Shown: positions 51-53,450 of the stretch, one piece after another
Layout of the letters: every line of letters begins with the position of its first letter
Position numbering within the stretch: position 1 is the stretch's first letter
DNA from: SAR202 cluster bacterium
GTDB taxonomy: Bacteria > Chloroflexota > Dehalococcoidia > Lucifugimonadales > VXLM01
Length of the DNA: 64,000 nucleotides
NCBI GenBank assembly: GCA_022448725.1
Contig: JAKUTR010000007.1
Span: 1-64,000, forward strand
Direction: 5' to 3'
Translations under genes and position numbers: made by a program
The notes under the pieces: model-generated
Database searches by the model: none
Seen by the model: only the letters and a program-made list of their open reading frames with translations
What the model was told of the DNA's origin: nothing

Positions 51-1601
51 CTAGTCGTAGCGTATAACCAATTCAACGTCGGTCAGGATTATGTCGCTGT
101 TATCGTCGATCTCTTCATTACGGTGTTTTAGAATAACTTTGACTTGATGACTACCCATCAATACTTCGTCAACGGTCATCTCCCTTGAGATCCAAATGAC
201 GTCACTGACCTCGGATACATGAGAGATAAACTGGTTTGAAAAGGGAACGAATACCTGATCATAGTGTCTCTCAAAATTATCGAGTTCCTCTCCGTCCCAC
301 AGAATTTTTAATTTGTCTCCTTTGGCCCAGTTCTCGAGACGGAAACGAAGCTCCAAGTGGCTGGGCTTATCAGATGTTAAGTCGTCAGCAACTTCGAGGA
401 TCATAGTTGGGCCATCGCCGGTGAGAGTGCGCTTTAGAGGAACGGGGACTGTGCCTCTGATGCGGTCCTTCCAAAAGGCTCCTCGCCATTCCCCTTCATC
501 GATGATCACACGCCGGGTGGCAGCATAGATCTTATCGGTCCGTCTCAGGGTTTCAGTGGACCCGATGGTGTTTAGTAGTTCTCTACGCGTCTCACCATTG
601 GCGTGCCAATTGAAGATGTAGATGCCGTCGGCTCCCAGCATGTGATGCCGGGCTGCAAGGGCACGGTTCATCATCTGATCTTTCGTGAAGCCATCTTCCG
701 GGCCTAGAGCCGTACCTGATATCGACGCGTCAAAGCCAGGGTAAACCAGGATATTTGTTCCTTCACAAAGTTTCTTGAACTCTGCGACCTCGTGCTCAGT
801 CTCGGTCGCAGCACCACCGGCAGGGATTAGTATGTCGACCAGATCTTCCTCTACCCATGTTTTGATGTCATATCCTATCCGGTCACACATCTCGAGATAA
901 CCGTTCACCCGAGCAGCCAAGTAAAAAGGTTTGCCGCGCCGTTCAGAGATCTCATTAGTGAGCGTGCGAACAGCCCTTTGTATATCAGTGAGGGTGTAAC
1001 GCATCCGATAGCCGTAATCCTCGTCAAAATGGAAGGCATGTCGCTGCCAGTCGAGTTCGACCCCGTCCCAATCACTGTTCTCGCACAGTTCTTTGATCGT
1101 GTTGAACCGTCTCTCCCGAACCTCACTGATTGCGAAATCAAATGAGAGGGCAAACCATTCTCCGACCCGATCACCAAGGAGGTATTCTGGATGATTGCGA
1201 CGGAACTGTGTTAGTGACGGGTGTTTGGACTGCTCCATCTCGCCAGGTTGCATGCCACCGAAGTGGTTATCGTTCATGCGAACAGAAGCATAGACATGCA
1301 TGCCTAGTTCGTGGCCACGCTGGATGAGCGCAGCGTGAGGATCTTCGCCACGATCGTACATGGACAGAATGTTGGCGCTTTGTGTGAAATGACGTGCATG
1401 TATGTAAGAATCGGGTTTGTTCAATCGACGGTCGCCATCCTCTGATCCTCCAGTGCTCCAGAAGTGTGCCCCGACCTGAGTGTCCTTCATCACGGAATAG
1501 GCTTTGTCTAGGAACTGCTCCATAGATTGAGGGTACTCTGAGTAACCATGCGGGGCGCCGTCCCAGTTGTAAATGATCCCGTAGTCTGGTGGTCGCTGCA
1601 T
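51..1601 (-). CDS. Glycosidase-like TIM-barrel protein, paralog 1
   Basis: 516 aa, function unknown. The first ~350 residues alternate strands and helices like a TIM barrel in the style of the GHL10/DUF187 glycosidase-like proteins. Conserved blocks are SVRMN (107-111), DGVELDW (179-185, with acidic E182 and D184 as candidate catalytic residues), a strand with AARVNGYL, and GADGIYIFNW near 330. The last ~130 residues are beta-rich and carry VADD and WDGEELD, a module shared with four other proteins in this window. No signal peptide is seen, so it is probably cytoplasmic. GGAGG lies 6 nt before the ATG. It sits 25 nt behind paralog 2 in one operon. By its blocks it is closer to paralog 4 than to its two operon neighbours. 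A role on a sugar or polyol is inferred from fold resemblance only. Confidence 0.6.
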   Translation of the reverse strand: MQRPPDYGIIYNWDGAPHGYSEYPQSMEQFLDKAYSVMKDTQVGAHFWSTGGSEDGDRRLNKPDSYIHARHFTQSANILSMYDRGEDPHAALIQRGHELGMHVYASVRMNDNHFGGMQPGEMEQSKHPSLTQFRRNHPEYLLGDRVGEWFALSFDFAISEVRERRFNTIKELCENSDWDGVELDWQRHAFHFDEDYGYRMRYTLTDIQRAVRTLTNEISERRGKPFYLAARVNGYLEMCDRIGYDIKTWVEEDLVDILIPAGGAATETEHEVAEFKKLCEGTNILVYPGFDASISGTALGPEDGFTKDQMMNRALAARHHMLGADGIYIFNWHANGETRRELLNTIGSTETLRRTDKIYAATRRVIIDEGEWRGAFWKDRIRGTVPVPLKRTLTGDGPTMILEVADDLTSDKPSHLELRFRLENWAKGDKLKILWDGEELDNFERHYDQVFVPFSNQFISHVSEVSDVIWISREMTVDEVLMGSHQVKVILKHRNEEIDDNSDIILTDVELVIRYD

Positions 1602-1626
1602 TGTGTATCCTCCGATTTCTGAACTT

Positions 1627-3102
1627 CTAAACCAATACTGTTGGAGTCTCGGTTTTTGGGTAGTCGATGTCGATCTCCAAGACTGAAAGGACTACGGTGC
1701 GGTCAAGATTCATTGGACGCGAGCCGACGCTAACGCTGACCTCGTTGCGGCCGTGAACCAGTGTGCCCTCCGGGAGAATGAACTCCAGCGTTGAGTAAGT
1801 GTAGCCAAAAGGCGTGTATTTCCGATGCTCCTGATCCAACTCCGTGCCATTAATTAATATGGTCATGTCATCAAGGGATGTTGATTGGTCGAGACGTAGA
1901 CAGAGTGTCGCCCGGGCTCTGTCAACGTCCTCTGCAAGGTGCATGGAGACTGTCTTTGCCTGTCCAACCTCCAGGTTTACAGGCAACATTGAAGTGTGTC
2001 CAAACTTCAGGTTCGATGTGTGTTGTGGAGCCATGAAGTACCGTTTCGGTAGTTCAGACAGTACGTCGGGATCACCCATCTCAGAGAATAGTTGTCTCTC
2101 TTCGGGCCCAATAGGCCATCGGAACCATGGCAGGTAGATTGCGTCAGCACCGCGGTCCCAATAAGCAGCAGCAGCAGCACGGTAGTGTTCTACCGATGCG
2201 TACCCCTCGCGGTTGCCGCCCGCGATAGAACCCATGGCAGGGTAGACTTCACAGTTAGTGCCAGATGCTAAATCCGTGACCCACTCGAAGGGGAAATCAG
2301 GGTCGATAGGGATGTGTCCGTATACGTTAGGGACTACAAAATCTAGTAACCCTTCAGATATCCACGTCTCCACATCGAACCCAGCTTCCAGGTTAGCTGA
2401 CAGTGTTGGCAGTATTCTCGCGCCGATAGCAGCAGGTCCCTTGCCTTTCCGATTTGACCTCTGGGCTACGGCTCTAAGATCACGAATAAACTCGGTGACA
2501 ACGTGGAGGTTGTTAGTAACCTCGTCAGCTTCAAAGTAGAAAGGGGAAAAGGAAAGGTCAAGCTCAATACCGTCTACGTCGTAGCGTACGATTGTTTCCT
2601 CTGCAATGGCGAACCTTTCAGCGCGGACCTCAGGATGGACCCAGTTGAAGCTGTTCTTTCTCTCGGGATCATCGGTTCCCTTAAGAACCCATTCAGGGTG
2701 CTCGATCTTGAATCGCCAGTTGTGGGCATTGTCTTTGTCATTGGGGTTGGAAGAGTGGGTTAGGCGTAGGCTACCAATAAAGTCCATGCCTACTTCGTGC
2801 GCTCGGTCAATCATCACAGTTAGGGCGTCCTCGCCGTCACGTATCAGGCTCATCGAATTTTCATAAGCTCGCCAACTCGCCACGTCGCCAATAACTTCGA
2901 GGTGAGACGCGAAAATATCCGCAACCTTTGAGTCATGGAAAACTGTTGGGCCTACCCCGAACCCCCAAACGAAAGTATCGACGCCGGTTCCAGCGGCAGC
3001 GTCGATTGGTGCAGTTACCTGCTCGTGCGTGATAGGAGGATCTGGTATATAGAAGTGGTAGTGTCTGGCGTCGTCGTAGTAGATCAGTTTGCGATTTGAC
3101 AT
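1627..3102 (-). CDS. Glycosidase-like TIM-barrel protein, paralog 2
   Basis: 491 aa, function unknown. The N-terminus has the family strand LIYYDDARHYH (6-16). It continues with AGTGVDTFVWGFG, SLRLTHSS (111-118), PEVRAERF, DGIELD (177-182; E180 and D182 are the invariant acidic pair), and GADAIYLPWFRWP near 320. The C-terminal module has LAEDVDRA and ILINGTELD. It is clearly closest to paralog 3, and both share GVGPT/GAGPT-FHD, SWRAYEN/GWRAYEN and EHPEW. No signal peptide or membrane segment is visible. AGGGGTG precedes the ATG. The 13-nt gap to the upstream paralog indicates co-transcription and a recent tandem duplication. Confidence 0.6.
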   Translation of the reverse strand: MSNRKLIYYDDARHYHFYIPDPPITHEQVTAPIDAAAGTGVDTFVWGFGVGPTVFHDSKVADIFASHLEVIGDVASWRAYENSMSLIRDGEDALTVMIDRAHEVGMDFIGSLRLTHSSNPNDKDNAHNWRFKIEHPEWVLKGTDDPERKNSFNWVHPEVRAERFAIAEETIVRYDVDGIELDLSFSPFYFEADEVTNNLHVVTEFIRDLRAVAQRSNRKGKGPAAIGARILPTLSANLEAGFDVETWISEGLLDFVVPNVYGHIPIDPDFPFEWVTDLASGTNCEVYPAMGSIAGGNREGYASVEHYRAAAAAYWDRGADAIYLPWFRWPIGPEERQLFSEMGDPDVLSELPKRYFMAPQHTSNLKFGHTSMLPVNLEVGQAKTVSMHLAEDVDRARATLCLRLDQSTSLDDMTILINGTELDQEHRKYTPFGYTYSTLEFILPEGTLVHGRNEVSVSVGSRPMNLDRTVVLSVLEIDIDYPKTETPTVLV

Positions 3103-3115
3103 TCTCTATTCACCC

Positions 3116-4576
3116 CTACGTTTGAGCCGTCGGCTTGGGATAGTCGATTATGACCTCAATGCCATTGAGCAACGGACTTTCGGTACCCAAGTTATGTGGG
3201 CGAGAAAGAATTTCAACACCTACCGTGTTAAGCCCTGTAATAAGTAGTCCTGGTTTCAATCTGTAGTCGAGTACCTCGCCTAAGTAGCCAATCGCTCTTC
3301 GCCATACAGTTTCTTGGTCGAGTGCCACATCGTTTATCGTCACTGTCATTTCATCTAGGTTTGTGGTGTCCGCTGTGATCAAGCGTAAAGTGCTGAGAGC
3401 TCCCTTAAAATCATCAGCTATAAATATGGTTGCGGTTTTTACTCCAGTGCCTACTGCCAGAGACATGGGTAGGGTTGCATCATACCCGTATGAGGCCGCA
3501 TATTTGCTGCTGGGTTTTGAGAAATAGTGCTTCGGTTGGTGGGCAAGAACGTTGGGATCTCGGATCTCTGATAGGATCGCTCGCTCCTCAGCTCCGTGTG
3601 GCCATTTGAACCAAGGTAGGTGGATACCATCGGCCCCTTTTGCCCAATAGGCTGCAGCTCCAGCCCGGTATTGTTTCAGGTTGGCATGTCCGCCCTGGTC
3701 TGGGAGGGCATGTGTCTGAAGTGAGGGATAGACGCGACAGTCGGTGCCGCGACCAAGCTCGACGAGCCATTCAAAGGGAAAGTCACTATCTAGTTGCATG
3801 TCTTCGTAGATGGTCGGTATGACGAAGTCTACTAGACCGGTTTTGATCCACGTCGTTACGTCAATTCCTGCGGCGGTGTTGCCTTTCAGGGTTGGCAGTA
3901 CCCGAGCTCCTATCAATATCTTCTTACCCTTGCTCTCCGATGCTAGATCTGCCGTCTTACGGGCCTCAACCATGAACCGGGTAAGGATCTGCGCTTTTTC
4001 TTGGACTGCATCATCCTCAAAGTAATGAGGCCAGAAGGTCCAGTCGACCTCGAAGCCGTCAATATCATATTTATTAACGGTTTCTTCGATGAGGGCGAAC
4101 CTCTCTGCCCGTACCTCGGGGTAAGTCCAGTCGAAGGCGAATTTCCCCGGGCCTTTCAAGCACCATTCGGGGTGTTCGTTTCGGAAGGTCCACGTGAACA
4201 TATCATCTGGTTCCGATGGGTCGGCCGGATGTGACATCCGTAGACTGACGAAGAACTCGATACCCTTGTCCTGAGCGCGGTTAATTAGGATATTGAGAGG
4301 GTCGAATCCTTGATTACGGAGGCTTTTAAGATTCTCGTACGCCCTCCATCCAGCTATCTCCTGGAATTTTCCTATATGCGTACCCCACCTCTCACCTACA
4401 TCAGTGTCATGGAACATCGTTGGGCCTGCACCCAGTCCATAGATTAGGGTGTCGACTCCCGTGCCGACGATTTCATCGATTGGCTTCCATGCTTCCTCAA
4501 GGCGCATCGGTGGATCGTAATAATAGATATAGGAGTGGCGGGCGTCGTTGTGGAAAAGTACTCGTCGTTCGCTCAT
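3116..4576 (-). CDS. Glycosidase-like TIM-barrel protein, paralog 3
   Basis: 486 aa, function unknown, and the first gene of the three-gene tandem. It has VLFHNDARHSY (6-16), GTGVDTLIYGLGAGPT, SLRMSHPAD (111-119), DGFEVDW (173-179, acidic E176/D178), RVLPTLKG and GADGIHLPWFKWP. The C-terminal beta-rich module has IADDFKGA and VTINDVALD. A GGGAGG Shine-Dalgarno site stands just before the ATG. The 154-nt gap to the upstream M16 peptidase gene, also on the minus strand, leaves room for a promoter, but I could not find a convincing one. The fold assignment rests on pattern resemblance to glycosidase-like barrels. Substrate and even enzymatic activity are unproven. Confidence 0.6.
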   Translation of the reverse strand: MSERRVLFHNDARHSYIYYYDPPMRLEEAWKPIDEIVGTGVDTLIYGLGAGPTMFHDTDVGERWGTHIGKFQEIAGWRAYENLKSLRNQGFDPLNILINRAQDKGIEFFVSLRMSHPADPSEPDDMFTWTFRNEHPEWCLKGPGKFAFDWTYPEVRAERFALIEETVNKYDIDGFEVDWTFWPHYFEDDAVQEKAQILTRFMVEARKTADLASESKGKKILIGARVLPTLKGNTAAGIDVTTWIKTGLVDFVIPTIYEDMQLDSDFPFEWLVELGRGTDCRVYPSLQTHALPDQGGHANLKQYRAGAAAYWAKGADGIHLPWFKWPHGAEERAILSEIRDPNVLAHQPKHYFSKPSSKYAASYGYDATLPMSLAVGTGVKTATIFIADDFKGALSTLRLITADTTNLDEMTVTINDVALDQETVWRRAIGYLGEVLDYRLKPGLLITGLNTVGVEILSRPHNLGTESPLLNGIEVIIDYPKPTAQT

Positions 4577-12258: not shown

Positions 12259-12349
12259 TCGTAGCTCTGGTTCATCTCACCCGGGCGATGCTTGTACCCC
12301 CTTGATTGCAAGGGTATGATTCCGCTGATACTTCCCTGAAAGGGTGTGT

Positions 12350-13924
12350 ATGGATATCTCCCGTAAGAACCGTCTTATCATTAGCAACGATGACGGCTGG
12401 ATTATGTCTAACATGACCGGTCCTGTAACTCCGGAAACCATCGCAAGCATGATGGTGGAGACTTACCCTGGGTCCCCCATAGGTGGCGTCTCTTGGTGTG
12501 TTGGCAATAGCGAGACATTCGAGTTTGAGACTGAGGTTGGAGAGCGATCCGGGGACGGGTACGAGCATTTTGAGACGATTCGTGAGGCATGGATGTACAA
12601 GAACTTGCTGAGCCTTATCGAGTCGTCGGGCGGACCACTTACTGAGATTAATCGCCAGTTCAGCAACGTGGGAATCGACATCTTCCCGTCAATGCGAATG
12701 AATAGTCATTACGATGTTGGCTATGGGTCTCCCGGTCACGGTAAATTTCGAAGAGAACATAGTGACTGGCTGATTGGTAGGCCGTACGAAGAGATCCCGT
12801 TCCCTACTCTTGAGCACGCCATAGCTCGTGGAGTCGATTATAAGTATCCAGGGGTACGGGAACATATTTTGGGGGTTATATTCGAGCTAATTGATAAGTT
12901 CGATGTCGCTGGTATCGAACTAGATTACTTTCGGCACCCGGCTTTTTTTCGTGTTGAAGAAGCTTACTCAAATCGGTACTTAATGACTGACTTCATTCGT
13001 CTTGTCCGCAAGCGACTCGACGAGGTTGGTAACCAACGTGGTAAACACCTTGACCTACTCGTTAGAGTCCCATCATCACTGTATGACGCTCAGCGAATAG
13101 GATTGGACGTTGGCGAATGGATAAAAGAGGACCTCGTTGACATCGTTGCTGCTGGCGGTGGATTCATGCCGTTTGATCAGCCGATTCGAGAGTTTGTGGA
13201 GATTGCTGAAGGCACAAATTGTCTTATTTACGGGAGTCTTGAAGCGCTTCGGTGGACACTTGATGAGGAAGTACTTTACGCGGCTGCTTCCCGGTTTTGG
13301 GAGGCTGGTGTCGATGGGTTTTACCTATTTAACTATTTCAATACTCCTAGAGAATGGAAGACCAGAGTGTTGGGTAACATGGTTGACAGGGACAAGTTGA
13401 AACGCCTCAACAAACAGTACGAACTCGACCACAGTGATCGTATTGCAAGTAAGCATGCCCATGTGGGGGCATTTAGGTATGCGGAACCGTGGGCCTCGTT
13501 ACCAGTTTTTATTGAAGAGACTCAACCCGGTGGCGGCGTTGCCTTAACCCTTGACATCGGAGATGACGTTGAGGGAGCCAAAAAGGAAGGGAGCCTCGAG
13601 GGATGTAAGCTGAGTCTTGGATTCGTTGGTATTGCTGAGGATGACGAACTTGACGTGAAACTAAATGGGAAGGATGTGCCGCAGGAGCCCTCTGAAGTAT
13701 CGGAGAACGGGTGGCGGTACACGGCATTTGACGGACAGGTTTACCACACCACGATGTCAACACGGGCGGTTGAAGGGAAGTTGATCACCTTTGATGTGAC
13801 TGAGGTGCCCATTTTAAAGGGAAGGAATGAAATTCTTCTGCGGTTCACAAAGGGAGAGTCACCACACTTCAAACCTGTAACTCTAGCTGAAGCTCGACTA
13901 AACATCGCATATAAGCAGGATTGA
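12350..13924 (+). CDS. Glycosidase-like TIM-barrel protein, paralog 4
   Basis: 524 aa, function unknown. It has LIISNDDGW near the start, SMRMNSH near 116, AGIELDYFRHPAFF (acidic pair E190/D192), LLVRVPSS, WIKEDLVDIVAAGGG, GVDGFYLFNYF, and the C-terminal module with IGDDVEGAKKEG and VKLNGKDVP. It resembles paralog 1 most (RMN, RHPAF/RHAF, EDLVDI with a following Gly-rich loop, FNYF/FNWH). The ATG at 12350 has AGGG 5 nt upstream and is preferred to the in-frame GTG at 12344. No signal peptide is seen. It is followed on the same strand by the NHL propeller gene. Confidence 0.6.
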   Translation: MDISRKNRLIISNDDGWIMSNMTGPVTPETIASMMVETYPGSPIGGVSWCVGNSETFEFETEVGERSGDGYEHFETIREAWMYKNLLSLIESSGGPLTEINRQFSNVGIDIFPSMRMNSHYDVGYGSPGHGKFRREHSDWLIGRPYEEIPFPTLEHAIARGVDYKYPGVREHILGVIFELIDKFDVAGIELDYFRHPAFFRVEEAYSNRYLMTDFIRLVRKRLDEVGNQRGKHLDLLVRVPSSLYDAQRIGLDVGEWIKEDLVDIVAAGGGFMPFDQPIREFVEIAEGTNCLIYGSLEALRWTLDEEVLYAAASRFWEAGVDGFYLFNYFNTPREWKTRVLGNMVDRDKLKRLNKQYELDHSDRIASKHAHVGAFRYAEPWASLPVFIEETQPGGGVALTLDIGDDVEGAKKEGSLEGCKLSLGFVGIAEDDELDVKLNGKDVPQEPSEVSENGWRYTAFDGQVYHTTMSTRAVEGKLITFDVTEVPILKGRNEILLRFTKGESPHFKPVTLAEARLNIAYKQD

Positions 13925-32227: not shown

Positions 32228-33787
32228 TCAAATAGAATCAAAGAAGGTTAAATTAGCTCCATGGTTTTCCATTGCGTCTACAGTGTCACCCCGGAATCGG
32301 ACTTGGATGTCACGTGTTAGGTGACCCATCGTAAGTTCCTCCAATGGCATCTCAAAGGCAAGCGTAATCGGCTGGTTTACAGGAGGCGTTGCGAAGAACA
32401 GGTAACCGTTGCTCCTTATAGGGTATTCTTCGGTTCCTTTGATAACCAAGCTGTCAAGGTTGACCCAAGGGGGAATACGAACGAAAAGGGGACCCGGCTG
32501 TTTTAGTACGATGGTGAGCGCGGGGTTCGTGTAGGGGGATTTCACCACTAGGTTCTCAGTCTCGTGGTCGAATAGGAGATTCACCCAGTGGCCAGCAGTA
32601 TCGGTTCGCACGCCCTCTCGCAGCACTTCACATAAAGAGCCTACAGTTCCACCCACGACGTCGGTGTTGAAACGCATCCACTTTTGTTCGAGTGGTTCGT
32701 GGCCGAATGGAGCGGGAAAGCCCCAGGACCCTTGCACTCGCCTGGCTACGTTGTGGAGAGTATCAAGTTCCTCAGGATTGTTAGGTGTTTCAATCCAGGA
32801 GATGTCGCGTAGCTGTGATGGCAGAAGATGACAACGGAGCATTCTTTCAGCGTCATGAAAGTACTCGGTGTACCCCCAGCGGCCTAGGATCAGAGCCGTT
32901 TCGATTATATCGCCAGTGTTGTTCATCTCACCTTCGTCTGGCTTGTTGCTGTCGAGTGCTGACGACTCTCTAGACCACCCAACCTCGTCACGCATATCCC
33001 ATAGCCCGTTGTCATAAAATGCCTTTACTCGATCCATTAGCGATGAGTCCGAGGTTAGATCGGCAAGTTGGGCGAGAGAAGACATAGTGCAAGTAATCGA
33101 GTGTGCGTGGGTGCCGAAGCGATCTTGGTCATTCCCGCCGTGCTGGGTGTAGTAATCGCCTATAGCTTCTTCTTTTAATATGAGTGCCAGTGCTAGAGCA
33201 GGACCATATCCCGTTACGCGGTAGTACTTAACCAGCGGGCCTATAGTTCGAGCGACGCCGGAGATATATGAACTTTCCTTTGTGCTCACAACACCGGTTT
33301 TGTCTATGGCCTTATAGTCCCAGTCCCGTTGAGGAACCCAGTATTTAAAGATGGTGTCAATACTCGCCTCGGCGATCTCTTGGGCTCGGGAGGAGCCACG
33401 GTATTTCACCAGAGCCGTGAGTGCGTGGAAGCCCTCCCGGATATGATGTGGCACGAAGATAGTGGGTGTGTCATATTCGCCGTCGTTCCCACGTTCGAGT
33501 GGTAGAGCAAGCGGCCCACTGTACGAGAGATAGGTTGCTGTCTCGTGTTTAGAGACGCTTTCTTCATCGATCTTGATACCAGCGACATCTTCCGCATTGA
33601 GTAGAGCATTCAGATGCCGGCCTGGGACGTGGCTTTCAAGTGGCATGCCAAGATATGCATCCGGTTTTACCGCCACGCGAAAATAGGGAGTGCCATCAGT
33701 TGGGTCGAACATACTACACATCGCGTTCGAGGCGAGTTCTATCGCGTCCAATATATTAGTAGTATTGACGTCAGACAGACGTGTCAC
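32228..33787 (-). CDS. Six-hairpin glycosidase-like protein (GH127/DUF1680-like)
   Basis: 519 aa. The first ~390 residues are helical and read like an (alpha/alpha)6 barrel (REGFHALTALVKYRG, HAHSITCTMSSLAQLADLT, NNTGDIIETALILGRWG). A beta-sandwich tail follows with PLFVRIPPWVNLDSLVIKG and GYLFFATPPVNQPITLAFEMP. This layout resembles beta-L-arabinofuranosidases of GH127/GH146. The Cys-rich zinc site of GH127 is not evident, so the catalytic mechanism is unclear. No signal peptide is seen. The start is GTG, 9 nt behind the acetamidase gene, so they form an operon. Confidence 0.6.
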   Translation of the reverse strand: MTRLSDVNTTNILDAIELASNAMCSMFDPTDGTPYFRVAVKPDAYLGMPLESHVPGRHLNALLNAEDVAGIKIDEESVSKHETATYLSYSGPLALPLERGNDGEYDTPTIFVPHHIREGFHALTALVKYRGSSRAQEIAEASIDTIFKYWVPQRDWDYKAIDKTGVVSTKESSYISGVARTIGPLVKYYRVTGYGPALALALILKEEAIGDYYTQHGGNDQDRFGTHAHSITCTMSSLAQLADLTSDSSLMDRVKAFYDNGLWDMRDEVGWSRESSALDSNKPDEGEMNNTGDIIETALILGRWGYTEYFHDAERMLRCHLLPSQLRDISWIETPNNPEELDTLHNVARRVQGSWGFPAPFGHEPLEQKWMRFNTDVVGGTVGSLCEVLREGVRTDTAGHWVNLLFDHETENLVVKSPYTNPALTIVLKQPGPLFVRIPPWVNLDSLVIKGTEEYPIRSNGYLFFATPPVNQPITLAFEMPLEELTMGHLTRDIQVRFRGDTVDAMENHGANLTFFDSI

Positions 33788-41096: not shown

Positions 41097-42137
41097 TCAG
41101 TTTAGCTTCCCCTCACGGTGGGCGGTAATGTAGTTCATCGAGAAATCATCTCGTCCTTCAAGCACATCCATCGCAAATTTTACAGGCTCAGACTCTTTGT
41201 CTAGTGCAAAAACTCTACTGAGTTTTGTTGCAATTGGGTCAAGGATGCCTGCGTCGATGCCTGCGTCAATTGCTAGATGTATGAATGTATCGTTTAACAG
41301 GCGTCGATTGGGCATTCCGAATGAAACGTTACTAAGCCCCATACCAATATGGATGTCGTTACCGTACTGCTCGCGAATCATGCGAACGGCGTCAAAGTAA
41401 TGGTTACCGTACTGAGGGTCGACCGATATCGGGAAGATAATACCATCTACATAGATGTCGTCGTCTGGGATATCTCGTGATCGTACAGTCTCCATAATTG
41501 TGCCAAGATTCTCTAGACGTTCATCGGCATCTTGTGGCATTCCGTCTGCGCTTGTACACATCAAAATCATCTTAGCATTGTGCTCCACGACCATATCAAG
41601 CGCATCCATTCGTTCGGCGGCTACGGAGTTGATCATTGGTCGACCGGCACGTCCGTCATACGCTTCTAAGCCCGCTACGACTATGTCTGAGTTTGAGGAG
41701 TCGATGCTCGGAGGTATCGGAGAAACCTCCTGTACGGTATCAACAGCAAAACGTATACAGGCCTTTTGGATTTCGAGGTTGTAGTGTACTTCGTCAGCAT
41801 TGATATCAAGGTACTTCGATCCTGCCTTAACTTGGCGTCTTACCTCATGGCGTATATACGCTTTGGCCTCCTCACGTTCGTCAGGATCGTCACTAATGCC
41901 TTTTCGCATAGCTATCAAGAAGTGTTTGATTTGGTTTTGTTGGTACGGTTGTGTCTCCTTGTACCAATCGGGCACTGTAAGTAAGCGGTCTTCGCCATCA
42001 TCGCCCTTGAAAGGAACAACCTCAGTGCCATCATCCAATGTGGTTGCACGCCGGCCGTTACGTAGGAGAACCCGGGTGGCATGAATGTTTTCACCCACGA
42101 TTGTGAACTGTTCCGGTGACGTGATAGCTCTGGGCAT
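41097..42137 (-). CDS. Pterin-binding (MeTr/MtgA-like) methyltetrahydrofolate methyltransferase
   Basis: 346 aa. A DHPS-like barrel of the kind that carries methyl groups between tetrahydrofolate and a corrinoid protein. It has GENIHATR at the start, KYLDINADEV, SIDSSN, MINSVAAERMD, and GMGLSNVSFGMPNRRLLNDTFIHLAIDAGIDAGILDP, which is very typical of MeTr/MetH pterin domains. It is not folP: the MGLSNVSFG and NDTF blocks are methyltransferase-type. It is the last of the methyl-transfer genes, 45 nt after the first UroD-like gene. No corrinoid-binding protein is encoded nearby. Confidence 0.87.
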   Translation of the reverse strand: MPRAITSPEQFTIVGENIHATRVLLRNGRRATTLDDGTEVVPFKGDDGEDRLLTVPDWYKETQPYQQNQIKHFLIAMRKGISDDPDEREEAKAYIRHEVRRQVKAGSKYLDINADEVHYNLEIQKACIRFAVDTVQEVSPIPPSIDSSNSDIVVAGLEAYDGRAGRPMINSVAAERMDALDMVVEHNAKMILMCTSADGMPQDADERLENLGTIMETVRSRDIPDDDIYVDGIIFPISVDPQYGNHYFDAVRMIREQYGNDIHIGMGLSNVSFGMPNRRLLNDTFIHLAIDAGIDAGILDPIATKLSRVFALDKESEPVKFAMDVLEGRDDFSMNYITAHREGKLN

Positions 42138-42182
42138 CTGGTTTTATCCTCAGGGGGTATTTAGTGTCTATTAATTATTGGA

Positions 42183-43223
42183 TTAGTTGACGCTGTGCAT
42201 TGCGTGCCAATCCTTAACAGATTTTGGTATTTCCAGTAGGTTCTCAAGCTTGGTGGCAAGCGGGATTGCGCACTCTGGCGCAATCATATCTACACCAGCG
42301 TCCATTGCACGAAAGACCTCTTCCCGTACCTCCTCTGGCCCCTTTGAATAAAGGGTTACGGGGTTATTAATATTCCCGACCAATGCGATGCGGCCGTCGA
42401 CTATATCCATCGACTCTTGAGGATCGTTTTTGGAGTCGAAGTGGAAGGCTGCCATATTGCTACGGGCGATTCCATCCATTCTGTCGGTGGTCTTCCCGCA
42501 GATGTGTAGAATCAACGGAACGGGCAGCCGTTCGACCATCTCTTGGTGTATTTCCAGTAGGAACTTATCGTAGTAGGCCCCGCTAACTAGATCACCTGTA
42601 GCATGATCCGGGAAGGTCAGGACGTCCGCGCCTGCGTCAATCTGCGCCTCTCCAAACAGGACCGATATTTCTTTGAGTTTATGCAGTGTGCGAAGCGTCT
42701 CGTCCGGATCATCAATAGACATTAGTAAGAAACGCTCTACGCCAAACACGTGATAAGCGAGGGTCCACGGGCCCATAGTTTTTCCTATTAGTGCTACTTC
42801 ATCGCCGAATTCTGCTTTTAGCATCTGGATAGACCGGGTAATCGCCACATTGTCTTGGTGTTCGAGGAAGCCTGGAGGGATATGAACGTCATCTGGACCG
42901 TTCCATATCGGATTGGTCATTCTAACCGTTGGCCAATTGTCCTTTTCCTCCCATTGCATTTCACAACCGAGGGCCGAAGATTCTTGAATAATAGAGAAGT
43001 AGGGCATGATCGAATCAAAACCAAGCTCGGTATATCCTGTTGCAGCAAGCCTAGCGTTTAACTCTGGATCGCGGTTTGCCGCAGGGAAGGGAGAGTCAAC
43101 CATATCCATCAGTTCTACTGTTGCCACATTTGTGGGATTCGCGATGGGTGTTCTATCCACGGGTTTGAGCGCAAGCGCATTTAAAACCCGCTCTTTTGGT
43201 GTCATGCTCTCGACGATTGCCAA
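42183..43223 (-). CDS. Uroporphyrinogen-decarboxylase-family methyltransferase (MtaA/MtbA-like), copy 1
   Basis: 346 aa. It has the UroD fold with the zinc set of MtaA/MtbA-type corrinoid methyltransferases: H240-x-C242 (LILHICGKT) and C318 (APECAIP). True HemE lacks these. MTPKERVLNALALKPVDRTP is the usual family start. It should move methyl from a methylated corrinoid to an acceptor thiol or the reverse; the partner is not visible. A strong AAGGAGGAG site precedes the ATG. It lies 12 nt behind a close paralog. Confidence 0.87.
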   Translation of the reverse strand: MAIVESMTPKERVLNALALKPVDRTPIANPTNVATVELMDMVDSPFPAANRDPELNARLAATGYTELGFDSIMPYFSIIQESSALGCEMQWEEKDNWPTVRMTNPIWNGPDDVHIPPGFLEHQDNVAITRSIQMLKAEFGDEVALIGKTMGPWTLAYHVFGVERFLLMSIDDPDETLRTLHKLKEISVLFGEAQIDAGADVLTFPDHATGDLVSGAYYDKFLLEIHQEMVERLPVPLILHICGKTTDRMDGIARSNMAAFHFDSKNDPQESMDIVDGRIALVGNINNPVTLYSKGPEEVREEVFRAMDAGVDMIAPECAIPLATKLENLLEIPKSVKDWHAMHSVN

Positions 43224-43235
43224 AATCTCCTCCTT

Positions 43236-44273
43236 CTAAACAGTACTTCGGTCCTCGGTGTACCAATCGTGTACCGCACGTGGAATCTCAAGGACATTGT
43301 CGAGTTTCGCGGATAATGGTACCGCACATTCAGGCGCAATCATATTGACTCCGGCATCCATACAGGCGAAAACCTCACGGCGGACGTCTGCAGGTGTTCC
43401 CGCGAAGATAGTGTTCGGATTGTTGATATTCCCTACCAGTGCAATACGGCCATCGACAATTTGCATCGCCTCTGCAGGGTCGTTCTTGGAGTCGAAGTGG
43501 AAGGCGGCCATATCATTCTGTGCAATATAGCCGAGCCTGTCGATTGTTCTACCACAGATGTGCAGAATCAAAGGTACCTTTAGTCGGTCGGCCATCTCTT
43601 GGTGTATCTCTAAAAGGAACTTACGATAGTATTCACCACCTACGAGGTCGCCGGTGGCATGGTCAGGGAAAGTCAATGCATCAGCGCCGGCGTCGATTTG
43701 CGCGTTCCCGTGGAGCACCGATACCTCCTTGAGTTTGTGTAGACAACGGAGAGTTAAATCTGGGTCATCGATACTCATTAGCAGCCAGTTCTCGACCCCG
43801 AAGGTGTGATATCCAAGAGTCCACGGGCCCATGGTTTTTCCAATCACGGCACATTCCTTACCCAAATCGCGTTTCAATATGAGTGTTGAGTCAATGATGC
43901 ACTTGACGTCCGGGTGCTCTAAAAAGTTGTTTGGTATTCGAATGTCTTTGAGTGATTTCCATATGGGGTTTCCCATCCGAACCGTGGGCCAGTTGTCCTT
44001 TTGCTCCCACTGTATTTCGCAACCGAGTGCAGATGACTCCTGAATGATCGTTGCGTGGTGGTAGGTTGAATCAAAGCCTAGTTCAAGGTAACCAGTTGCA
44101 GCCAGCCGGGCATTCAGGTCCGCGTCTCTGCATGCGTCCGGGAAAGGTGAGTTCATCAAATCCATCATATCCACTGTGAAAACACTGGTAGGGTTGCAGA
44201 GTGGAGTTCGGTCGACTGGTCTCCCGTTAAGGGCATTAAGCACTCGCTCGCGTGAGGTCATTGTCTCAATCAT
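43236..44273 (-). CDS. Uroporphyrinogen-decarboxylase-family methyltransferase (MtaA/MtbA-like), copy 2
   Basis: 345 aa from the ATG at 44273. An in-frame TTG at 44285 is possible but would place GGA inside the gene. It shares long blocks with copy 1 (ALGCE-QWE-KDNWPTVRM, IGKTMGPWTL, DALTFPDHATGDLV, FHFDSKNDP, LVGNINNP). It keeps the zinc residues in LILHICGRT and APECAVP. The two copies are clearly a tandem duplication that has diverged. It is likely the first gene of the UroD-UroD-MeTr unit. Confidence 0.87.
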   Translation of the reverse strand: MIETMTSRERVLNALNGRPVDRTPLCNPTSVFTVDMMDLMNSPFPDACRDADLNARLAATGYLELGFDSTYHHATIIQESSALGCEIQWEQKDNWPTVRMGNPIWKSLKDIRIPNNFLEHPDVKCIIDSTLILKRDLGKECAVIGKTMGPWTLGYHTFGVENWLLMSIDDPDLTLRCLHKLKEVSVLHGNAQIDAGADALTFPDHATGDLVGGEYYRKFLLEIHQEMADRLKVPLILHICGRTIDRLGYIAQNDMAAFHFDSKNDPAEAMQIVDGRIALVGNINNPNTIFAGTPADVRREVFACMDAGVNMIAPECAVPLSAKLDNVLEIPRAVHDWYTEDRSTV

Positions 44274-44385
44274 AGGAGATTCCAATTAATGTATAGAACG
44301 TAAGATATTTTAAGGTCGCTCAATCGATACTTGATGGATTTAAGTAGGTTTGCTCTGAGGCGTAGCTACATAATCCACTCTAGGT

Positions 44386-45069
44386 CTATGTTTGTGAGAA
44401 GCCCAGAGTTCCGGTCGTCATCTGTCCACGCATGTCCTCGGCGTCGAGCATCTCCGCTGTGCCAGTTACATTGCGGGCATACGGAAGGGTGAGTCTGACT
44501 AGGCCATCACGGCGTCCTCCGTGTGTGAACGCAACGTGGCTGTCACTTACGCGTTCCATATCCCCATATCGAACAAAGCCTTGTAAACAAGCTCGGATTC
44601 TTACAGCAGGATTTTTGTAGTCACCCTCAGCGGTGACTCGGTACGCCCAGCGGTCATTGTCATTCTCTGGTTCTACGATGAGTTGTAGTGGGGAACGTAA
44701 GTCCTTGATCTCGATGCGGCCAGAGGGATGTTTTGTACCGTACGGTTTCTCAACAGCCTGGCGCAGAAGAAAGCGTAGAGGCCGACCGTACGTCTCATTA
44801 TCAGGAAAACGGGCCTGATTTTTCGTATCTAGCATGGGAACCATGTCACCTAGTTCGACAAGTTGATCACGAATCTGCTCTAGGCGTTTCTCGGTGCCCG
44901 GCTTTTGGCTGAAACTCCATACGGTGAATACCTCATTCTTCAAGTAGAGCCCTACGGTGATCTCTTCAAAGTTAGGATCCATCGAAATAAGTTCCATGCA
45001 AGTACCGTATTTTTCTAGTGCTTCTTGTACCTGCCCACCTTTGCCCAGTCCTTGATTTGCTGTGTTCAT
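44386..45069 (-). CDS. Protein of unknown function in the methyl-transfer cluster (227 aa)
   Basis: I do not recognise it. From the ATG at 45069 (AAGGAG 9 nt upstream), the N-terminal half has ELISMDPNFEEITVGLYLKNEVFTVWSFS and a helical LEQIRDQLVELGDMVPML. The C-terminal half is strand-rich, with IEIKDLRSPLQLIVEP, WAYRVTAEGDYKNPAVRIRA and a Gly/Arg stretch (FTHGGRRDGLVRL). The frame runs above 45069 into the homocysteine methyltransferase gene and is not used there. It sits between the homocysteine methyltransferase-like gene and the UroD pair, so a part in the same pathway is inferred. Confidence 0.6.
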   Translation of the reverse strand: MNTANQGLGKGGQVQEALEKYGTCMELISMDPNFEEITVGLYLKNEVFTVWSFSQKPGTEKRLEQIRDQLVELGDMVPMLDTKNQARFPDNETYGRPLRFLLRQAVEKPYGTKHPSGRIEIKDLRSPLQLIVEPENDNDRWAYRVTAEGDYKNPAVRIRACLQGFVRYGDMERVSDSHVAFTHGGRRDGLVRLTLPYARNVTGTAEMLDAEDMRGQMTTGTLGFSQT

Positions 45070-45091
45070 AGTATGTTTCTCCTTGTCCGCC

Positions 45092-45988
45092 TCACCCTTT
45101 TTTTCTAATAAGTTCAGAGAGTGCATTGATGTGTGTAGGAGTAGTGCCACAGCAGCCTCCTACGATGTTGATCCCAATGTCAATTAATTTCTGGAATCCC
45201 TGGGCCATGAATTTGGGGCTTTCTGGATATACGATCTGTCCTTTTCGAATTTCTGGAATCCCTGCATTTGAGTGTATGAGCAGATATCCAGGGTCAACAT
45301 CCCGTAGCTCCCTTGCCAAGATCACCATGTCGTCTATACCGCTTCCACAGTTGGCACCCACAACATCTGCGCCAGCTGCCCGGAGCTTCTTAGTAGCGTC
45401 TTCAGGAGAGTTTCCCATCATAGTGAACCACCCACGGGGTCCTCTCGTAAACATCATCGTACTTATCACGACGAGGTTTGTGTACTCTTTCGCAGCCTTG
45501 ATGGCAAGAGATGCTTCCTCAACCGATATCATAGTCTCGATATCAATGGAGTCTACCCCGCCTGCTTCAAGGGCTGTGACTTGTTCGACAAAAGCTTCAT
45601 ACACTTCACTGTCTGGGGTGGTGCCCGAATTACTCTCCAAGAGCTCGCCTGTTGGGCCGATTGAGCCTGCTACGAATTGCCCGCTACTAGACTGGCTACG
45701 TGCGTGCTGGGCTCCAAGTATGTTCAATTCGGCAACGCGATCCCCATACCCGTACTTTTTTAGCATAAAGCTAGTGCCGCCAAAGGTATTAGTCAACACC
45801 ATGTCAGCACCTGCAAAGAAGTACTCCCTAGCCATGGCTTGGATGACTTCAGGATTAGCTGAGTTCATCTCCTCCGGGCAGCCGCCCGGTTCTAGCCCGT
45901 GAGACTGTAAGTAGGTCCCTGTGGCTCCATCCGATATAAGGACATCTCCGGCAGCGAGTTGCTGACGGAGGTTATTTGCAAGGGTCAT
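45092..45988 (-). CDS. Homocysteine S-methyltransferase family protein (MetH N-domain / BHMT-like)
   Basis: 298 aa. Stand-alone Hcy-binding barrel with the three zinc cysteines C214 (GANCGSG), C279 and C280 (GGCCGTTPTHI). It has ISDGATGTYLQSHGLEPGGCPEE and NTFGGTSF as in MetH domain 1. It transfers methyl to homocysteine, with the donor either a corrinoid protein or an onium compound. The 5' end overlaps the preceding gene by 17 nt. No cobalamin domain is attached. Confidence 0.87.
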   Translation of the reverse strand: MTLANNLRQQLAAGDVLISDGATGTYLQSHGLEPGGCPEEMNSANPEVIQAMAREYFFAGADMVLTNTFGGTSFMLKKYGYGDRVAELNILGAQHARSQSSSGQFVAGSIGPTGELLESNSGTTPDSEVYEAFVEQVTALEAGGVDSIDIETMISVEEASLAIKAAKEYTNLVVISTMMFTRGPRGWFTMMGNSPEDATKKLRAAGADVVGANCGSGIDDMVILARELRDVDPGYLLIHSNAGIPEIRKGQIVYPESPKFMAQGFQKLIDIGINIVGGCCGTTPTHINALSELIRKKG

Positions 45989-46328
45989 TCGTTGTTAACC
46001 AGTTATCAATCGCTCCGGGGTTTGGGTCGCGTAGTCCTGTCTTATGAAGATCTCGGATGCGATTCACAAAATCTTGGGGCATGCCATTGTTGTAACGTGT
46101 AGTCACTGCACTTGCCGCTTCCTCGGACGTACACTCCATTTCGATAAAGTCCCCCCAATTCCATGCCATAAGGTAATCATCCGAGTGCGCACTCCCGTCA
46201 AACATAGAGACTGCGTCGACGCCTTGCTGGAATCGCTCGTCTAGCTGTTTGGAAATTTGCCCTGATTCATCTTCAGCTTGAACCTGCACAGGAATTTCCT
46301 TCCAGTACATAACTCGTACCCTTGCCAT
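45972..46328 (-). CDS. Small 'virulence factor'-domain-like protein
   Basis: 118 aa. It has ARVRVMYWKEIPVQVQAED, a helix with SKQLDERFQQGVDAVSM, then DDYLMAWNWGDF and EAASAVTTRYNN. This resembles the small conserved family catalogued as 'Virulence factor' (recalled as PF13769; not searched), which I recall occurring next to folate/corrinoid methyl-transfer genes in other bacteria. The biochemical role is unknown. The ATG at 46328 is chosen over the TTG at 46337. It is the first gene of the operon and overlaps the homocysteine methyltransferase-like gene by 17 nt. Confidence 0.7.
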   Translation of the reverse strand: MARVRVMYWKEIPVQVQAEDESGQISKQLDERFQQGVDAVSMFDGSAHSDDYLMAWNWGDFIEMECTSEEAASAVTTRYNNGMPQDFVNRIRDLHKTGLRDPNPGAIDNWLTTNDPCK

Positions 46329-46356
46329 CTGTTCCAACCCCCCAAGTTCGGTGATT

Positions 46357-51878: not shown

Positions 51879-53450
51879 ATGAACCGCCCACGACTGATTT
51901 ACTACAACGATGCCCATCACTTCCATGCTAAGCGCCTAGAGCCGCCAGCAAGTATTCATATGCTGGAGTGGCCGGTAAATGAGATTGCGGGAACGGGGGT
52001 TGACCTTCTTGCACTTGGCCTTGGCTACGGAGATGTTTACTTCCATCAGAGCAAAGTAGGACGAGTTGTAGGGCAACAGAAAGAGGTGTGGGATAACTAC
52101 ATTGACTGGCGCATAATGCGAATGGTCCAAGAAGCTGCTGCCAAGGGAACAGACCAACTTCGCGAGGTTATACGGAGGGGGCACGAGACAGGCATAAAGG
52201 TGTTTCCGAGTATTAAGCTACAAGATGGTTCGGTTCCCTATGGTGAACGTTGCGGTAAGCTCAAGTGGGAGCGAGGCCAGGAAGTCTGTATCGGTGAGGA
52301 AGGCCGGGCTGAGTGGTCCTACGATTACGCTAACGCAGAAGTGCGTGATTACAAGCTCGCTTTGATTCGTGAAGTGCTTGAGGACTATCGAGCTGATGGT
52401 ATAGAGCTTGACTACTTGTTCGGGAACGTTTACTTCAAGGAGGCAGAGGTCCAACAAGGGATGAAGATCATGGCTGATTTCGTCTCTGAGGTCAGGGAAC
52501 TCGCAACACAGATCGGCCAGAAGCAAGATCGGGAAGTTGGTGTAATGGCGCGAGTTGGACTGCTTCGCGATGAGAATATGGAACAAGGCTTAGATGTACA
52601 GCAGTGGCTCAAGGATGGGGCGCTTGACCACGTTGTTGGACAGGATCCGTACGTGCTGAGTGAGACTAGCGTCCAGCAATCTTGGATGCCAGAGGCGGCT
52701 AACGCAGTTGGAGTAGGAGCTTACTACCGCCCACCACGACGTGTTTATGATGAGCGGGTAGGTCTCCCAAGTATCGAGATGTACCGTGCTTTGAACCAGA
52801 TGCTGATCTCTGATGGATGGGCGGGCCAGTACCACGGGTATCTCCTGTGGCCATTTGACAATCGGGAATACCAGATCCTCCGTGAACTCGCTCATCCTGA
52901 AGTACATGTTCGTAGCCGAAAGCGTTATATAACTCAGCCCAAGGAGGGAGTGGAAGGCCAACCTACAACGACCCCTCACCGCCAATGCCCAGTTCAACTT
53001 GTGGAGGGCGAGACCGCTAAGGTTAACCTTCTGATAGCTGACGATGTTGATGCTGCGAAGTCTGATGGGGAGATGCGAAAGCCAGTTTTAACTCTAAGGT
53101 TCTCATATTTCTGTATTGAGGATGAGTACGAAATACGCTTCAATGGCCAAGTGTTACCGATTGAGGAGTTCGAAATCACAGATGAACGTGGTTTGGAGAT
53201 GCGTCTTCGTCTAGCAGGTAGTATGAGTGTTCAGGCACCGCTTGGTATGTCAGCCCACTGGTTCCGATGTAAGCTCCCAATAGACTTGGTTAGGCAGGGC
53301 GACAACCTGATTGAGGTCGCAATGGGTAAACTCGATCCTAAGGCGGGGTTCACCCGCAGCATAAATGGGGCTGAGGTCCTTATGCGATATAGGGATATGG
53401 AGCGACCTGAGGGCTTTGATGTAGATCGGATTGCCCCCTTGTCTGCCTAG
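51879..53450 (+). CDS. Glycosidase-like TIM-barrel protein, paralog 5
   Basis: 523 aa, function unknown. It has LIYYNDAHHFH (6-16), GTGVDLLALGLGYGDVYFHQSKVG, SIKLQDGS, DGIELDYLFGNVYF (E176/D178), VMARVGLL, and a late-barrel YHGYLLWPFDN in place of the GADG block. The C-terminal module has IADDVDAAKSDG and IRFNGQVLP. Its start matches paralogs 2 and 3 and its length matches paralogs 1 and 4. GGGAGGG precedes the ATG. It stands alone, 218 nt before the Mo-hydroxylase operon. Confidence 0.6.
   Translation: MNRPRLIYYNDAHHFHAKRLEPPASIHMLEWPVNEIAGTGVDLLALGLGYGDVYFHQSKVGRVVGQQKEVWDNYIDWRIMRMVQEAAAKGTDQLREVIRRGHETGIKVFPSIKLQDGSVPYGERCGKLKWERGQEVCIGEEGRAEWSYDYANAEVRDYKLALIREVLEDYRADGIELDYLFGNVYFKEAEVQQGMKIMADFVSEVRELATQIGQKQDREVGVMARVGLLRDENMEQGLDVQQWLKDGALDHVVGQDPYVLSETSVQQSWMPEAANAVGVGAYYRPPRRVYDERVGLPSIEMYRALNQMLISDGWAGQYHGYLLWPFDNREYQILRELAHPEVHVRSRKRYITQPKEGVEGQPTTTPHRQCPVQLVEGETAKVNLLIADDVDAAKSDGEMRKPVLTLRFSYFCIEDEYEIRFNGQVLPIEEFEITDERGLEMRLRLAGSMSVQAPLGMSAHWFRCKLPIDLVRQGDNLIEVAMGKLDPKAGFTRSINGAEVLMRYRDMERPEGFDVDRIAPLSA

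Follow-up and report, generated by a model that had tools for sequence, protein, structure and literature searches.

The question raised by this locus is what five related, glycosidase-like proteins encoded close together in a SAR202 cluster bacterium act on, and whether their family, which the original prediction could not name, belongs to a known one. The window, by which is meant the whole analysed stretch of 64,000 nucleotides of contig JAKUTR010000007.1, encodes all five of the predicted homologous proteins, each found as an open reading frame of approximately 490–525 residues. They are listed below, where class A denotes the proteins with the acid histidine and carboxylate clamp described further on and residue 129 is numbered as in EnvSia156:

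51..1601, minus strand: P0003, 516 aa, class A GH156-type protein, best match 6rzd with E = 7.1e-29
1627..3102, minus strand: P0004, 491 aa, GH156 fold, AlphaFold pLDDT 92, TM 0.84 to 6s00
3116..4576, minus strand: P0005, 486 aa, of the same class as P0004 and 45% identical to it
12350..13924, plus strand: P0001, 524 aa, class A
51879..53450, plus strand: P0002, 523 aa, Lys129 class

A whole-genome search with P0001 recovers P0003 (2e-37), P0004 (4e-29), P0005 (2e-28) and P0002 (1e-19). An upstream GTG at 12344 is an alternative start for P0001 and would give a protein of 526 aa. The first three genes lie on the minus strand, on which the original prediction was silent, so the order of transcription is P0005, P0004 and P0003, with intergenic gaps of 13 bases between P0005 and P0004 and 25 bases between P0004 and P0003. 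NCBIfam gave no match for P0001–P0005, and the Rfam scan of the window gave none either; in Pfam the family matches GHL10 alone, weakly or over part of the model.

The family can be named. When the family profile was compared with the PDB, the top match was EnvSia156 (6rzd), with E = 1.7e-65 over 388 positions, and 6rzd was also the best match of each of the five proteins alone (E from 1.9e-14 to 7.1e-29), the identity of the family proteins to EnvSia156 being 21–27%. EnvSia156 is the founder of CAZy family GH156 and is an inverting exosialidase. The fold was modelled for P0004, with P0001, P0002, P0003 and P0005 assigned by alignment only. The AlphaFold (AF2) model of P0004, built from an alignment of 30 paralogs (pLDDT 92, pTM 0.91), bears out the TIM barrel that had been proposed and adds eight C-terminal strands beyond residue 374; a single-sequence model of P0003 (pLDDT 34) was discarded. 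In a Foldseek search with the P0004 model the best matches were 6s00, 6s04 and 6rzd, with TM scores of 0.84/0.83 across both the barrel and the C-terminal domain, and the runner-up was Cwp19, with a TM score of 0.5–0.7. The architecture of EnvSia156 is a (β/α)8 barrel followed by an eight-stranded β-sandwich (PMC6811678). That the five proteins belong to GH156 by both sequence and fold is firmly established.

The structures and variants of EnvSia156 identify Asp14 as the base, His134 as the acid and Arg129, Arg202 and Asn346 as the grip on the substrate carboxylate, while residues 15–16 line the glycerol tail of the ligand (PMC6811678). Every one of the 88 full alignment rows, across phyla, has the equivalents of Asp14 and Glu197, and the invariant Asp is located about 10–20 residues from the start of the protein. 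The E-x-D motif had been put forward as an invariant pair expected in the active cleft; by homology to EnvSia156 the base is instead the Asp that ends strand 1, and Glu197 aligns with the E of the motif, which is also invariant. The motif itself occurs in all five proteins (ELD in four, EVD in one), but its D varies across the family: the E is found in 88 of 88 members, whereas the last position is D in 59 and N, Q, E, C or H in the others. The late GADG/GVDG strand, reported for four of the five proteins, is exact in three (P0001, P0003 and P0005) and reads GADA in P0004 and GWAG in P0002.

P0003 retains the equivalents of Asp14, Arg129, Asn131, His134, Glu197, Asp199, Arg202, Arg246 and Asn346. 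P0001 retains the clamp of Arg129, Arg202 and Asn346, with its His one column earlier than His134 (MNSHYD versus MNDVHY); the same shift is seen in its nearest relatives (MNSHY or MNEHY versus MNDVHY) and would most simply be explained by a one-residue deletion. At positions 129/202/346, P0004 and P0005 carry Arg/Phe/Trp, and in P0002 Arg129 is replaced by Lys, Arg202 by Phe and Asn346 by Tyr; His134 is lost from P0002, P0004 and P0005, where its column holds Ser, Ser and Ala, respectively. Among the 32 full-length paralogs of this genome the clamp is intact in 12, including P0001 and P0003, and one (C34:66032-67648) is intermediate, keeping Arg129, His134 and Asn346 with Asp at 202. The other 19 lack Arg202 and Asn346, and His134 is also gone from them save in one small class. 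The sets found at 129/202/346 outside class A are Lys/Phe/Tyr, Arg/Phe/Trp, Arg/Ala/Phe, Leu/Tyr/His, Leu/(Asp or Thr)/(Thr or Arg) and Arg/Tyr/Asp. Conservation does not extend to the glycerol-tail binders of EnvSia156 (Asn15, Ser16 and Cys53), not even within class A.

These classes follow the tree of the family. The full clamp is present in all 26 members of one clade, the class A clade, and the clamp classes require three changes on the tree, which is the minimum, against 46.5 in shuffles. Arg202 and Asn346 rank first and second among the 468 well-filled columns in separating this clade from the rest. The tree was built on all of the roughly 548 columns and the clade was taken from that tree, so this control is not wholly independent, the two columns being part of the tree as well; as they are two of about 548, the circularity is minor and carries little weight. 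EnvSia156 groups with class A with a support of 94, although its exact place is unsure because of its long branch and a warning of the tool about the joining of long branches.

The location, substrate and mechanism proposed here for P0001–P0005 are inferred. The preferred reading, to which a probability of about two in three is given, is that they are cytoplasmic inverting exo-hydrolases of the GH156 fold, of which class A acts on ulosonic ketosides and the others act on different sugars. Signal peptides had been predicted to be absent, and a check by hydropathy only agrees, as a strongly hydrophobic N-terminal segment is missing from all 32 full-length paralogs; small glycosides or oligosaccharides would enter the cell and then be hydrolysed in the cytoplasm, with the water activated by the invariant Asp (Asp14 of EnvSia156, Asp11 of P0004). 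In P0001 and P0003, His134 would be the proton donor and Arg129, Arg202 and Asn346 would hold the C1 carboxylate. Since class A combines the acid His with the carboxylate clamp, it should cleave ketosides of an ulosonic acid that resembles sialic acid, which could be Neu5Ac, KDN, KDO or some other nonulosonic acid. As Asn15, Ser16 and Cys53 are not conserved, the acid may be one other than Neu5Ac. Class A is thus likely to consist of ulosonic-acid hydrolases. In the classes of P0002, P0004 and P0005 the clamp would have been taken apart and each class would have reshaped the −1 subsite in its own way, which suggests that the substrate is another kind of sugar, with no carboxylate there, and the invariant Glu197 is the candidate proton donor. 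A change of specificity in these classes is the best interpretation of the residue pattern, and P0002, P0004 and P0005 are accordingly termed GH156-fold homologs here and not sialidases. More tentatively, at slightly less than even odds, the branch outside class A may comprise undescribed intracellular glycosidase families that use the Asp14/Glu197 pair and have new specificities set at the former clamp positions, and with which marine Chloroflexota and several other phyla would hydrolyse diverse glycosides.

Two other explanations concern the meaning of the lost clamp. All of the classes might be sialidases or ulosonic acid hydrolases in which the clamp has been replaced, for example by Arg16/His17 of a D-x-R-H loop or by Lys129. 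Most members outside class A do have D-x-[RH]-H after the catalytic Asp, which would bring extra positive charge near the −1 subsite, P0004 and P0005 retain Arg129, and His134 variants of EnvSia156 are still active on an activated substrate (PMC6811678). This explanation is nevertheless unlikely: two of the three clamp residues have been exchanged for hydrophobic or aromatic ones (Phe, Ala, Tyr or Trp) and Arg129 is replaced by Leu or Ile in 23 members, substitutions with which no carboxylate could be held, and residues 15–16 of EnvSia156 face the glycerol tail and not the carboxylate (PMC6811678). The loss of both the general acid His134 and the clamp would also suit catalytically dead or sugar-binding proteins on a GH156 scaffold. 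We regard this as rather less probable still, as the invariance of Asp14 and Glu197 throughout the alignment would not be expected of dead copies and every class retains a clear residue set of its own.

A further alternative is a peptidoglycan-type activity, as for other GHL10 proteins such as Cwp19. The resemblance to GHL10-like proteins that had been noted is real, in that 21 of 30 paralogs of this genome match GHL10 (PF02638) at E ≤ 0.001; against the curated cut-off of 27.9 bits, P0004 (56.6) and P0005 (46.8), for which Cwp19 is the second match, score above and P0001, P0002 and P0003 below. The similarity to GH156 is, however, stronger in sequence and spans both domains, the active centres of EnvSia156 and Cwp19 share no residues (PMC6811678), SAR202 bacteria are reported to lack peptidoglycan (PMC11994032) and, by the hydropathy check, the family proteins have no signal peptides. 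A peptidoglycan-type activity is therefore very improbable, and the preferred reading remains that of cytoplasmic GH156-fold hydrolases with class-specific substrates.

The paralog density that was thought unusual is real, but five is an undercount. The assembly has 75 contigs that total 2.09 Mb and is 95% complete. With the family profile as the query it gave 34 places, comprising 32 full-length genes, one gene cut by a contig end and one distant GHL10 gene (on C10); the 33 family genes total about 50.5 kb, or 2.4% of the assembly. The median pairwise identity of the paralogs is 24% and only a single pair exceeds 55% (87%), so the radiation is old. This 87% pair, C1:82589-84031 and C7:53297-54739, lies on separate contigs and is the sole recent family duplicate in the genome. 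The three tandem copies are indeed adjacent, but they are old paralogs (24% identity between P0003 and P0004, 45% between P0004 and P0005), and a recent tandem duplication of the triplet was rejected on the low identities and the tree.

Nor is the family a novelty of one lineage, as a lineage-specific adaptation would imply, because its classes recur in MAGs of Latescibacterota, Gemmatimonadota and Planctomycetota; this recurrence across phyla again indicates an old radiation and not a recent tandem duplication. With P0003 as the query, relatives of 49–54% identity were found in MAGs labelled Latescibacterota, Gemmatimonadetes/Gemmatimonadota, Planctomycetaceae and Chloroflexota, and in the tree paralogs of this genome pair with Latescibacterota ones; gene exchange between phyla sharing a habitat is likely. 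Of these genomes, those outside Chloroflexota have 3–18 copies, and three Chloroflexota MAGs (G001–G003), all of the same genus as the window and one of them Dehalococcoidia bacterium SB0661_bin_13, have 35–37. Its occurrence in the order is scattered, with members in 21 of 250 genomes; matches in that survey were capped per genome, and the copy numbers given above come from other searches. In a sample of the phylum beyond the order the matches were mostly partial and weak. The P0005–P0004 pair recurs, with gene order and strand unchanged and with 54–64% identity, in G001 (on C84; same genus) and in G018 (on C59; another family of the order), so the two proteins may cooperate or have related substrates.

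The surroundings of the genes are mixed catabolic genes, with 134 Pfam families in 100 neighbours and no operon repeated around the family genes, so the substrate cannot be read from the context. The genome has one NeuB and six BNR_2 (GH33-like) genes above the cut-off, one of which (C34:65111-65830) adjoins the divergent family gene C34:66032-67648. NanE is absent from the genome, and two NAL/DapA-type (NanA-like) aldolases, beside a family gene or on the contig of the window, fall below the NanA cut-offs; no classical sialate pathway was thus found.

Two further regions of the window were noted. A possible corrinoid methyl-transfer cluster at 41097-46337 on the minus strand, unusual for an apparently aerobic heterotroph, includes a pterin-binding methyltransferase-like protein, two neighbouring MtaA/CmuA-like proteins, one of which (42183-43223) is above the PRK06252 cut-off and just under the MtaA/CmuA cut-off, a protein that by eye is homocysteine S-methyltransferase-like (45092-45988) and a 254 aa protein without a Pfam match (44386-45150, minus strand). 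At 32228-33787, also on the minus strand, a 519 aa protein with no Pfam or NCBIfam match adjoins acetamidase/formamidase-family, enolase-superfamily and PhyH-like proteins, the enolase-superfamily neighbour exceeding an o-succinylbenzoate synthase (MenC) cut-off.

In earlier descriptions GH156 is a small family of sialidases. In the present case a single genome of 2 Mb has 33 genes of the GH156 fold, and the two deep branches of the family differ most sharply in the residues of the sialic-acid grip, so that it seems to serve as a scaffold for a range of specificities. The loss of this grip from most copies suggests that the fold has been reused for cutting many different sugars. No description of such an expansion of GH156, or of the diversification of its clamp, was found in a limited search outside which most subscription papers and CAZy lay. 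Earlier work portrays SAR202-type Chloroflexota as having few glycoside hydrolases (PMC10444878; for sponge SAR202, PMC6306507). Should these proteins prove to hydrolyse glycosides, this account would be incomplete, and the family would be a candidate source of the sugar acids that feed the enolase pathways of these bacteria.

In comparison with known systems, the family shares with EnvSia156 (PDB entries 6rzd and 6s00) the two-domain fold, sequence homology and Asp14 throughout, to which P0001 and P0003 add the catalytic acid His and the carboxylate-binding clamp, whereas the N-terminal loop after Asp14 is changed and P0002, P0004 and P0005 lack His134, Arg202 and Asn346. EnvSia156 came from a hot-spring metagenome and many of its GH156 homologs have signal peptides (PMC6254351); unlike these, the present family shows none by hydropathy, and it reaches 33 copies in one genome. 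GH156 genes of SAR202 strain MD153 have been named among its CAZymes, without more (PMC11994032). With GHL10 and Cwp19 (PDB entry 5oq2) the family shares a related barrel, but the GHL10 match spans about one third of the barrel model, the C-terminal β-sandwich is of the GH156 kind and the active centre is not conserved between EnvSia156 and Cwp19. Like the paralog expansions known from SAR202, those of COG4948 enolases and FMNOs (PMC6946804, PMC10444878), the present one consists of many divergent copies of one catabolic family, but the family is a different one, and in this genome about 19 MR_MLE_C genes stand against 33 GH156-fold genes.
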